Origin: Deltaproteobacteria bacterium
GTDB taxonomy: Bacteria; DRYD01
Length of the DNA: 5,498 nucleotides
Assembly (NCBI GenBank): GCA_028276365.1
Contig: JAPYWL010000070.1
Location: 1-5,498 of the forward strand
Direction: 5' to 3'
In this document: positions 504 through 3,612 of the stretch, piece after piece
Numbering within the stretch: position 1 is the stretch's first letter
Layout: every line of letters starts with the position of its first letter
The notes under the pieces: model-generated
The model's database searches: none
What the model saw: the letters and a program-made list of their open reading frames with translations, nothing else
What the model was told of the DNA's origin: nothing
Translations under genes and position numbers: made by a program

Positions 504-2615
504 ATGAATGAATCTTTAATTGAAAATAGTAAAAAAAATATAATAGATAATGTTAATTTTGAGTTTCCGAAATGGACTAAAGAAATCCTTAGATTTATTA
601 GTGTAAAACCTCAAATAATATTAGAAGGTAATATATATGATGTTTATCCTATTGAAATTAATGTTAATGTTGGTTCTAATTTAAGTATTAATAAAGATTC
701 AATTAGTTCCAAAGATTCAGTTAGTTCTAAGCAAGTAATTAATTCTCAAACAATTGACCCTAAAAATCAAGATATTAATCAAGATACTAAAACAATATCA
801 TCTCAGAATATTAACCAAAGTTCTAATAATATAACTAATGAAGTTCCTGTTTCTAATCAAAATTTAAATAATCAAAGTTTAAATAATTTCAATCAAAAGG
901 TTGTAACTACGATGAGATTAACAGATTATTTATCTACTATTTTGTATGATCAAGAAGGTTATGAATTAGTTGTTTTATTTGAACCTGTTTTTGGTTTTAA
1001 AAAACTAAAAGGTAGTGATGAGGTATTTAAGAAGTACATAAAGGATAGTACTGATAAGGAGGGTTTTGTTAAAGCTGTTTTATTTAGAGCTTATGAAGCT
1101 ATTGAAAATATGGTTAATTCTAAAGAACATTATATTGCTATTATTATTAATTTTGCTTCAAGATTGCCTGAAGTTTCTCAAAATGATATTAATGAATTCT
1201 TATATAAGATGTTTAGATTATCTTTTTTAAGTACCCCTAAAATTATTTCAAATAATCCTAATCCTAAGTATAATCCAGTTTTTATTTTAATAGATAAAGA
1301 AACAGACTTGCCTACATGGTATACTTTAGATAATCCTAAAGTAAAGATAGTAACTGTTCCTAAACCTGATAATATTTCTAGGAAAATTGTTATAGAAACT
1401 TTAATAAAAAGACTTGATAAGTATAATGAATTAATTAGTGATGAAAAAAAATACAAAGAAATAATTGATTTATTTATTGATCAAACTTATAAGATGTATA
1501 ATAATGAAATAATTTCAATAGTTTCCTTAGCTAAAAAAGAAGGAATAGATGTATATAATGTAAATGAGGCAATAAGGAGATATAAAGTAGGGGTAATTGA
1601 TAATCCATGGGCTAAATTAAGTATAGATGATATCATTAATGCTGAAGAAATATTAAAAAGGAGAGTAAAAGGTCAAGATAAAGCTATTAAGAGAGCTGCT
1701 GAAATATTAAGAAGATCATTTTTTAATTTATCAGGTTCTCAGTTTGGGATTAGTTCATCTAGGCCAAAAGGAGTTATGTTTTTTGCAGGACCTACTGGTG
1801 TTGGAAAAACAGAACTTGCTAAAGCTTTAACTGAATTAATCTTTGGTAGCGAAAGTAATTATATTAGATTTGACATGTCTGAATATTCTAAGGAACATAC
1901 TGATCAAAGATTAATAGGAGCTCCACCAGGTTATGTAGGATATGACGCAGGGGGACAATTAACTAATGCTATTAAACAAAATCCATTCTCTATTGTTTTA
2001 TTTGATGAAATAGAAAAAGCACATCCCAGAATTTTAGATATATTCTTACAAATCTTAGATGAAGGAAGACTTACTTCTGGTAGAGGAGAAACTGTTTATT
2101 TTACTGAATGTATTATTATTTTTACTTCTAATTTAGGAATTTATGATATAGATAATTTGGGAAATAAAATAGTTAGAGTAGATCCATCTATGGATTATGA
2201 ATTGGTTGAAAAACAAGTTAAAGATTTTATTATTGATTATTTTAAATTTAGAATAAATAGACCAGAAATCCTAAACAGAATTGGTGAAAATATTATAGTC
2301 TTTGATTTTATAAGACCTTATGCTGCTAATCTTATATTTGAAAAAATGGTCAATAATGTTATCACTAAATTAAAGGATAATAATAAAATAGAATTGATTT
2401 TAGAGCAGGATATATATAATACTTTAAGAGATTATTGTACAAAAGATTTAACTATGGGAGGAAGAGGAATAGGGAATAGATTAGAAATATCCTTTGTTAA
2501 CCCTTTATCTACTTTATTATTTAAATTACAACCAAATGAAGGAGATACTGTTGTTATTAATGAAATAAAAGAGTCTCAATTAGGATGGGAATTAAACGGA
2601 TATATTAAAACTTAA
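504..2615 (+). CDS. Clp/HSP100-type AAA+ ATPase with a degenerate N-terminal AAA-like module
   Basis: The C-terminal half is a canonical Clp D2 (AAA_2) ATPase module of the ClpB/ClpC type. Seen: Clp box [10 protein letters not shown] (389-398), Walker A GPTGVGKT (429-436), DMSEY, pore loop GYVGY (476-480), Walker B IVLFDE (497-502) followed by IEKAHP, sensor 1 TSN (N543), arginine finger in RPEILNR (R592) and sensor 2 GGR (R654), then a ClpB-D2-small-like end. This module should hexamerise, bind ATP and thread or remodel protein. The N-terminal half has no Clp-N repeats, no ClpB-type coiled-coil M domain and no Walker A. It reads as a decayed AAA fold: GNIYDVY (42-48), a low-complexity insert (about 57-131), a Walker-B-like strand with no acidic pair (IAIIINFAS, 211-219), a sensor-1-like strand ([14 protein letters not shown], 257-270), VPKPD.ISR (285-293) and a lid-like helical part (about 315-361). 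A cytosolic chaperone or remodelling ATPase is likely; the substrate is unknown. It is probably in an operon with rho. Confidence 0.9.
693..728 (+). repeat. Two-copy 18-bp in-frame tandem repeat in the AAA+ linker
   Basis: Copy 1 (693-710, aaagattcaattagttcc) and copy 2 (711-728, aaagattcagttagttct) match at 16 of 18 bases and encode [12 protein letters not shown] (residues 64-75). It sits in the low-complexity linker, and the unit length keeps the reading frame. This is the pattern expected from a slippage or small tandem duplication event. Confidence 0.8.
855..884 (+). repeat. Two-copy 15-bp in-frame tandem repeat in the AAA+ linker
   Basis: Copy 1 (855-869, aatcaaaatttaaat) and copy 2 (870-884, aatcaaagtttaaat) match at 14 of 15 bases and encode [10 protein letters not shown] (residues 118-127). 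A partial third unit, aatcaaaag, follows at 891-899. Like the 18-bp repeat upstream, it is in frame and lies within the Asn/Gln/Ser-rich insert. Confidence 0.78.
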
Positions 2616-2700: not shown

Positions 2701-3171
2701 ATGGATTTTCAAGAAATAGATTTACCAGCAGTAGGTAAAAAATATATTATTAATTTAAATGATCTTGATATAGTAGTTATTCATCATAATACTGGAAAAA
2801 AAGAGTTATATTTTGTAAAAGATGATGAAGTTTTATATAATATAGAATTTTCTGAGAATGTTGCTAAAGATTTAGGGATGATCCTAACAGGAACATTTTA
2901 TCAAACTTTATCCCCTGATAAAGTAGATTTTATCATTAATCAAATGGTTATGGAATGGATAAAGATTAAGGATTACCCTAAGCTGCATAATAAGACTATA
3001 GCAGAGTTAGACATAAGGAGAAATACGGGCTGTACTGTTATTGCTGTTATCAGAGGTAAGGAATTCTTTATTAATCCTGATCCCTATAATTTTAAATTTA
3101 ATCCCCAAGATACTATTATTTTAGTAGCTAATAGAGAACAATTAAAAAAATTCTTTGAATATATCCGTTAA
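2701..3171 (+). CDS. KhtT-like protein with C-terminal TrkA-C (RCK_C) domain
   Basis: The protein resembles KhtT, the cytosolic regulatory subunit of the Bacillus K+/H+ antiporter KhtU, in length (156 residues) and layout. Seen: the N-terminal signature DLPAVGKKYII (7-17), a beta-rich N-terminal domain with VVIHHNTGKKELYF (25-38), then a TrkA-C domain (about 85-156). The latter has the usual KTIAELDIRRNTGCTVIAVIRG (98-119), NPDP (125-128), DTIILV (137-142) and a terminal helix QLKKFFEYI. In known KhtT the RCK_C domain binds c-di-AMP and the protein gates KhtU; c-di-AMP binding here is inference. There is no membrane antiporter gene next to it in this window, unlike the khtSTU arrangement, so its partner must be elsewhere or it acts on something else. 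There are no membrane segments. The start at 2701 is set by homology of the N-terminus; no Shine-Dalgarno site is visible ahead of it, only an A-rich run. Confidence 0.83.
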   Translation: MDFQEIDLPAVGKKYIINLNDLDIVVIHHNTGKKELYFVKDDEVLYNIEFSENVAKDLGMILTGTFYQTLSPDKVDFIINQMVMEWIKIKDYPKLHNKTIAELDIRRNTGCTVIAVIRGKEFFINPDPYNFKFNPQDTIILVANREQLKKFFEYIR

Positions 3172-3204: not shown

Positions 3205-3612
3205 ATGGCTATGGAATTTGAAAAAGTTAAAAAGCAACAAAGGAAAGAAGAATATAAATACAAAGCTTTAGAACCTAAGGAAGTATTCTGTAAAATATTA
3301 AATAAGAAAATAACTATTGTAGTAGAACATCTTGATTATAAAGGATCTTATGTTAAATCCGAAATAGGGGAAATATTTTGTAGTAATATGTTAGAATGTT
3401 ATTATGAAAATATAAAATGTAAATATAGTGGAATAAGTAAGTTTTATCCTGATCCTTTAGAAAAAAACTTTAACGATGAGTTCTATGAAAATTATGTAGG
3501 ACCTGAAGAATTTGAAAGAATTTTAAAATTAAGACAAAAATATCTTAATAAAGAACAGCAAAATGAGAATAAAAATATAAATTTAAATGAAGATGAAACT
3601 GAAACTGAATAG
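3205..3612 (+). CDS. Small four-cysteine protein of unknown function, possible zinc ribbon
   Basis: I do not recognise this 135-residue protein as a named family. It starts with a Lys/Glu-rich helix-prone segment (about 4-25). A compact core follows (about 27-85) with the only four cysteines: C29, C59, C65 and C72, in the pattern C-x29-C-x5-C-x6-C. Around them are VFCKILNKKITIVVEHLDYKG (two parts, 27-47), IGEIFCSNMLECYY (54-67) and IKCKYSGISKFYPDP (70-84). Four spaced cysteines within a beta-hairpin-like context suggest a structural zinc site, but there is no CxxC pair, so this is inference. The last 30 residues are Asn/Glu/Lys-rich and likely disordered (ending NEDETETE). There is no signal peptide or membrane segment, so it is cytosolic. 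It lies between the KhtT-like gene (32-bp gap) and the glycosyltransferase (10-bp gap), and is probably cotranscribed with both. The motif-like density of the core argues for a real, conserved gene. Confidence 0.8.
   Translation: MAMEFEKVKKQQRKEEYKYKALEPKEVFCKILNKKITIVVEHLDYKGSYVKSEIGEIFCSNMLECYYENIKCKYSGISKFYPDPLEKNFNDEFYENYVGPEEFERILKLRQKYLNKEQQNENKNINLNEDETETE

Follow-up and report, generated by a model that had tools for sequence, protein, structure and literature searches.

A Clp-type D2 motor joined to a degenerate Cdc48-type AAA module in an unnamed AAA+ protein family

The 703-amino-acid protein described here joins, as judged from its sequence, a complete ATPase module of the Clp/Hsp100 D2 type to a decayed classical AAA domain of the Cdc48/VAT/Vps4 kind (hereafter the N-module). 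It is encoded in a 5498-bp stretch of DNA (the window) that is an entire contig of a 1.6-Mb, 87%-complete deltaproteobacterial genome. The idea that the fusion is peculiar to this genome was not supported: it belongs to an existing, widely distributed family. An open-access literature search found no name for the family, and its role appears to be unstudied. We consider it fairly probable that the protein works as a two-tier AAA+ machine, in which an active Clp D2 ring is topped by a Cdc48-type pseudo-ATPase platform and remodels a dedicated client independently of any protease. The features of the gene and protein are collected in Table 1.

Table 1. Features of the gene and its product, with window coordinates
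Feature	Residues	Window position	Strand	Basis or remark
Whole gene, pseudo-AAA/Clp fusion protein	703 aa	504-2615	+	ORF list
N-module, degenerate classical-AAA (Cdc48-type) domain	19-369	558-1610	+	Without P-loop, without DE pair
GNIYD, the GN[IV]xD motif in place of the P-loop	42-46	627-641	+	Conservation, profile alignment
Low-complexity N/Q/S-rich insert	~57-132	672-899	+	Alignments, dN/dS 0.42
Walker-B-like strand, acid pair lost	211-221	1134-1166	+	Sister-family profile aligned with Cdc48
Sensor-1-like strand	259-270	1278-1313	+	Alignments
Junction to lid (P[DN]..R)	283-293	1350-1382	+	Start of best Cdc48/VAT match
Clp/Hsp100 D2 module	~372-690	1617-2573	+	AAA_2, ClpB/ClpA/ClpC D2 matches
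D2 Walker A, GPTGVGKT	429-436	1788-1811	+	Sequence; in 32/32 relatives
D2 substrate-threading pore loop, GYVGY	476-480	1929-1943	+	Sequence
D2 Walker B acid pair, D501-E502	501-502	2004-2009	+	Sequence
D2 sensor 1, TSN	541-543	2124-2132	+	Sequence
D2 arginine finger, R592	592	2277-2279	+	RPEILNRIG motif
D2 sensor-2 region, GGRG	652-655	2457-2468	+	Sequence

An earlier reading of the sequence alone (the sequence-only reading) had proposed that a live, fully equipped Clp D2 module carries a decayed AAA domain in front of it and that Clp-N and M domains are absent. Pfam and NCBIfam searches and motif inspection bore out the description of the D2 module, which is complete with every catalytic element, and neither a Clp-N nor an M domain was found in the 703-residue protein with these two databases. 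The Pfam model AAA_2 matched residues 420-594 (E-value 3.6e-49), and ClpB_D2-small matched residues 611-685 below its gathering score (E-value 0.0014). By the pattern used, 31 of the 32 relatives have GYVG or GFVG in the pore loop. The NCBIfam Clp models scored the whole protein far under their equivalog cut-offs. In a phylogenetic tree, the D2 modules of 30 family members made up one side of a 100/100 branch, opposite seven D2 modules of the ClpB/C/E type. The best matches of the protein are to Clp/Hsp100 proteins (ClpB, ClpC, ClpA, ClpE and ClpV), with which it shares a D2 with Walker A and B motifs, a GYVG pore loop, sensors and an arginine finger. Unlike these proteins, the family lacks the Clp-N, M and Clp D1 domains, has a classical-AAA pseudo-ATPase in front and forms a separate D2 clade.

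The N-module is not described by existing domain models. Residues 1-369 alone had no significant match in Pfam or NCBIfam, the N-modules of 31 Clp-type relatives had no consistent match in either database, and those of 31 members of a sister family (described below) had no consistent match in Pfam. Pfam and NCBIfam contain no model for this module. We searched three profiles (from 15 N-modules, 31 Clp-type and 31 sister-family sequences) against the PDB. The matches listed for all three were classical AAA proteins, namely VAT, Cdc48/p97, Vps4, katanin, spastin, the proteasome-activating nucleotidase and FtsH-type proteins, and Clp D1 was absent among the matches listed. The best E-values were 2.4e-7 for the Clp-type profile (to VAT) and 3.3e-7 for the sister-family profile; profile positions 198-263 align with VAT residues 170-233. 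In hhalign comparisons the N-module reached a probability of 97-99% with classical AAA domains, a set partly collected by the N-module profile itself, compared with 0.3% for Clp D1 and 0.5% for Clp D2, whose control sets contained few sequences (five and six). The maximum among 20 column-shuffled controls was 0.23%. Unbiased support for a classical-AAA origin comes from the PDB searches and from the 80% hhalign match between the N-module and the sister family's own active AAA module. These profile matches indicate that the N-module is a decayed classical AAA domain.

All of the elements that had been named in the sequence-only reading (the Walker-B-like and sensor-1-like strands, the junction and the lid-like helices) are present, without a Walker A motif and without the acidic pair. 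The range it had stated extends into the D2 module, and residues ~57-132 are the low-complexity insert. Absence of Walker A throughout the homologues had been set beforehand as a test, and a P-loop is missing from the N-module in every one of the 32 Clp-type relatives. In the profile alignment, FIL.GNI.D stands opposite FLLYGPPG.GKT, and across 69 N-modules the GN[IV]xD motif retains its G in 65, its N in 66 and its D in 68. The sister-family segment vAviiDyaetilP aligns with IFIDEIDSIAP of Cdc48, identifying the Walker-B-like strand; at its acid site the window protein has N216-F217, and relatives mostly retain the D, never DE. Because GN[IV]xD replaces the P-loop and the catalytic acids are lost, the N-module is predicted to be unable to bind ATP in the usual P-loop manner. 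At the lid junction P288 is conserved in 68 of the 69 N-modules, and lid-like helices run from there to residues 358-369. One sister-family member (L123) contains a P-loop-like string, GIDKSGKT, which we rejected as a Walker A candidate: its position, near residue 131, does not coincide with the strand-1 site.

The insert is missing from most relatives and shortened in the nearest one (L019). Between the window protein and L019, dN/dS was about 0.12 in the N-module core and 0.07 in D2, compared with 0.42 in the insert. The N-module core is thus under purifying selection and, since GN[IV]xD is also conserved, the module is not debris. AlphaFold2 models made from a shallow alignment, with L019 as the sole relative, had a pLDDT of 34 for residues 19-369 and 35 for the whole protein, low even over the known D2. 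We therefore infer the AAA fold of the N-module from sequence profiles.

The same N-module occurs in a second architecture. In a sister family of about 37 members (for instance, L046-L064 and L121-L151), it is followed not by a Clp D2 but by an active AAA domain of the classical kind (GP/RxGTGKT, IDEAD). The N-modules of the two families match each other with an hhalign probability of 99.96% over 264 columns, and both carry GN[IV]xD. In one sister-family member (L064, at L085:7767-9611) the P-loop is lost in the second module as well (GPTGNGNI), and this protein is possibly dead in both rings, to judge by its motifs. In three cyanobacterial proteins (L154, L156 and L161), tandem CbbX-like AAA modules come after a diverged, weaker form of the N-module.

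Among the closest known systems, Cdc48/p97, VAT, Vps4 and katanin share the Walker B-to-lid signature with the N-module, but the N-module has lost the P-loop and catalytic acids, and the second module is a Clp D2 rather than a classical AAA domain. In Pex1/Pex6 a catalytically inactive D1 lies above an active D2 (PMC10518020), an arrangement like the one proposed here. However, Pex1/Pex6 is a hetero-hexamer in which both rings are classical AAA and the D1 of Pex6 still binds ATP, whereas the present family shows one subunit type, a wholly replaced P-loop and a Clp-type D2. The defence proteins DolB and PDC-M37B (from PADLOC) have a Clp-like D2 (E-values 4e-20 and 7e-30), but the similarity is mainly in D2, and none of their partner genes was found next to the family gene. 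Partner genes required by the Dodola, PDC-M37 and Mokosh systems are not among the window neighbours; the plasmid relatives stand beside helicases like those of Mokosh, Hhe and PDC-S37, with no known Dodola partner. The MoxR-vWA conflict systems (PMC7159879) were rejected as a counterpart, as their core proteins differ.

The protein is encoded in each of the seven genomes analysed from the window phylum, in one of them (G006) as a partial copy. Relatives were found in Proteobacteria, Cyanobacteria, Firmicutes and unnamed phyla. Plasmids, or records labelled as such, of Rhizobium, Caballeronia, Leisingera, Moellerella, Acinetobacter, Polaromonas, Photobacterium, Aristaeella and Geminocystis encode full-length relatives, which also occur in at least three other genome groups. 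Scans of viral contigs yielded no relative, and phage records gave no match spanning most of the protein. A broken copy of the gene is present in Mesomycoplasma hyorhinis (L181:5346-7298), annotated as several fragments. In G003, a genome of the window phylum, there is a second paralogue (L011/L021:262-2593) that is more compact and lacks the insert.

In the window, the gene is flanked by the 3' end of rho on one side and by a gene for a TrkA_C protein on the other; the neighbours with Pfam or NCBIfam matches are rho, TrkA_C, GT2 and aconitase. The downstream block (TrkA_C, an unknown protein, GT2 and aconitase) is common to the window genome and its sister genome G001, in both cases 3' of rho. 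The neighbours of the Clp gene are different in another genus (g2) of the window phylum, and so there is no fixed operon in this phylum. The TrkA_C protein (window positions 2701-3171) has an N-terminal part that we take to resemble KhtT of K+/H+ antiporters; no antiporter gene stands beside it. The unknown protein (135 aa, window positions 3205-3612) has no Pfam match and keeps its position in G001. In G001, a sodium/solute symporter-like gene split across two frames (L027:5825-7196) stands between the Clp and TrkA_C genes; no such gene was observed in the window.

Outside the window phylum, the gene is associated with radical-SAM and phospho-signalling genes. A radical-SAM gene (Fer4_12) is present in the examined region of 17 out of 27 loci, often directly adjacent, and was not found in that of the other 10, some of which are on truncated contigs. 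The same 27 loci include kinases (10 loci), zinc-ribbon-FHA proteins (six loci) and PP2C. Searches of 17 sister-family loci with the same profiles found no radical-SAM, FHA or PP2C gene, a second difference between the two families beside their motors. We defined membership of the radical-SAM subfamily by an E-value of 1e-45 or lower. The following p-values are optimistic because related genomes were counted as independent: 1.5e-5 for a nearby radical-SAM gene (17 of 27 loci vs 0 of 17 in the sister family), 1e-13 for the subfamily in carrier genomes (9 out of 10 vs 6 out of 376 others), 9e-6 with the window phylum excluded (3 out of 3 vs 6 out of 376), and 5e-5 within another phylum (8 out of 8 carriers vs 6 out of 31 others). 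In the window phylum, six of the seven genomes have radical-SAM and zinc-ribbon-FHA genes, unlinked to the Clp gene save in G003, where the second paralogue is directly followed by a zinc-ribbon-FHA gene. The window genome likewise has radical-SAM and kinase/FHA/PP2C-type partner genes. In this genome and its relatives the partner genes are unlinked to the Clp gene, and a pathway shared by gene and partners is there suggested by co-occurrence. Several proteobacterial plasmids have as partners a PIN protein and SF1 helicases similar to Mokosh, Hhe and PDC-S37 defence proteins. A link to comFC was discarded, as that gene adjoins the family gene in only two genomes of the window family, and adjoins one sister-family gene.

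Several other explanations of the protein were weighed. The order of elements in the N-module is that of an AAA domain and could reflect local decay of an ordinary ClpB or ClpC D1 in the window lineage. The identification of the N-module with a Clp D1 did not hold: it has no Clp D1 profile similarity in hhalign or among the PDB matches listed, the same state is found in distant relatives, the module is under purifying selection and the D2 falls in its own clade. We regard local decay as refuted and hardly credible. The N-module might instead be a ligand- or nucleotide-sensing domain that makes novel use of GN[IV]xD and is not an inactive ring, since the conservation of the motif that replaces the P-loop is stricter than expected of a decaying site. 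However, a structural turn or a ring interface could equally explain the conservation; we think a sensing domain unlikely.

Two further explanations concern what the motor serves. The relatives beside helicase-nuclease, PIN and kinase genes may be anti-phage or anti-plasmid ATPases, the window gene being a domesticated or stand-alone version. Some plasmid operons combine PIN, radical-SAM and an SF1 helicase that matches MkoA at 6.5e-98, and others encode a kinase-DUF4011-helicase-nuclease fusion matching PDC-S37 and Hhe. In the window phylum, however, the gene stands among housekeeping genes (rho, aconitase, deoC-like and radA-like) and occurs in all seven genomes by vertical descent, unlike a mobile defence gene, and a defence role appears improbable, to about the same degree as the sensing domain. 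Less probable still is a regulated unfoldase that feeds ClpP or a different protease, the N-module serving as its adaptor-binding domain. The D2 is related to the D2 of ClpC and ClpA, which feed ClpP, but an IGF/IGL-like ClpP-binding tripeptide is missing from the loop following sensor 1 in the window protein (a weak test) and in nearly all relatives where the pattern was readable, whereas a ClpC-like protein of the same genome has ELGLRAE there. No protease gene was noted among the annotated neighbours. Remodelling without proteolysis is favoured because the protein lacks the ClpP-type tripeptide loop and the Clp-N and M domains.

In the two-tier machine that we favour, the rear tier would be an active ring of Clp/Hsp100 D2 modules, hydrolysing ATP and threading a polypeptide through its GYVGY pore loops. 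By analogy with Pex1/Pex6, the front tier would probably serve as a fixed pseudo-ATPase ring or docking platform, choosing partners and coupling these to D2. A dedicated client would most likely be remodelled or unfolded without degradation. The sequence-only reading had suggested a substrate- or partner-specific remodelling machine, and the association with radical-SAM, kinase and FHA genes strengthens this suggestion. We infer hexamer formation, the platform role, protease independence and the identity of the client. As client or adaptor, the strongest candidates are the radical-SAM protein and three kinds of phospho-signalling protein (Ser/Thr kinase, zinc-ribbon-FHA and PP2C), because they are encoded beside the gene in many relatives and elsewhere in the source genome; these are candidates by gene association. 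More tentatively, the family may be a multi-phylum machine in which a Clp-type ring with a GN[IV]xD pseudo-ATPase cap, regulated by kinase, PP2C and FHA proteins, remodels or activates the radical-SAM enzyme or its target.

An inactive AAA ring over an active one is already known from Pex1/Pex6; here a dead Cdc48-type ring would sit over a live Clp-type one. Since the dead module is found with two or more different motors, it behaves as a transferable part. Members of the family pass as a generic "AAA family ATPase" where they are annotated, and their specific link to phospho-signalling genes and one radical-SAM subfamily provides a concrete, testable hypothesis for the client.
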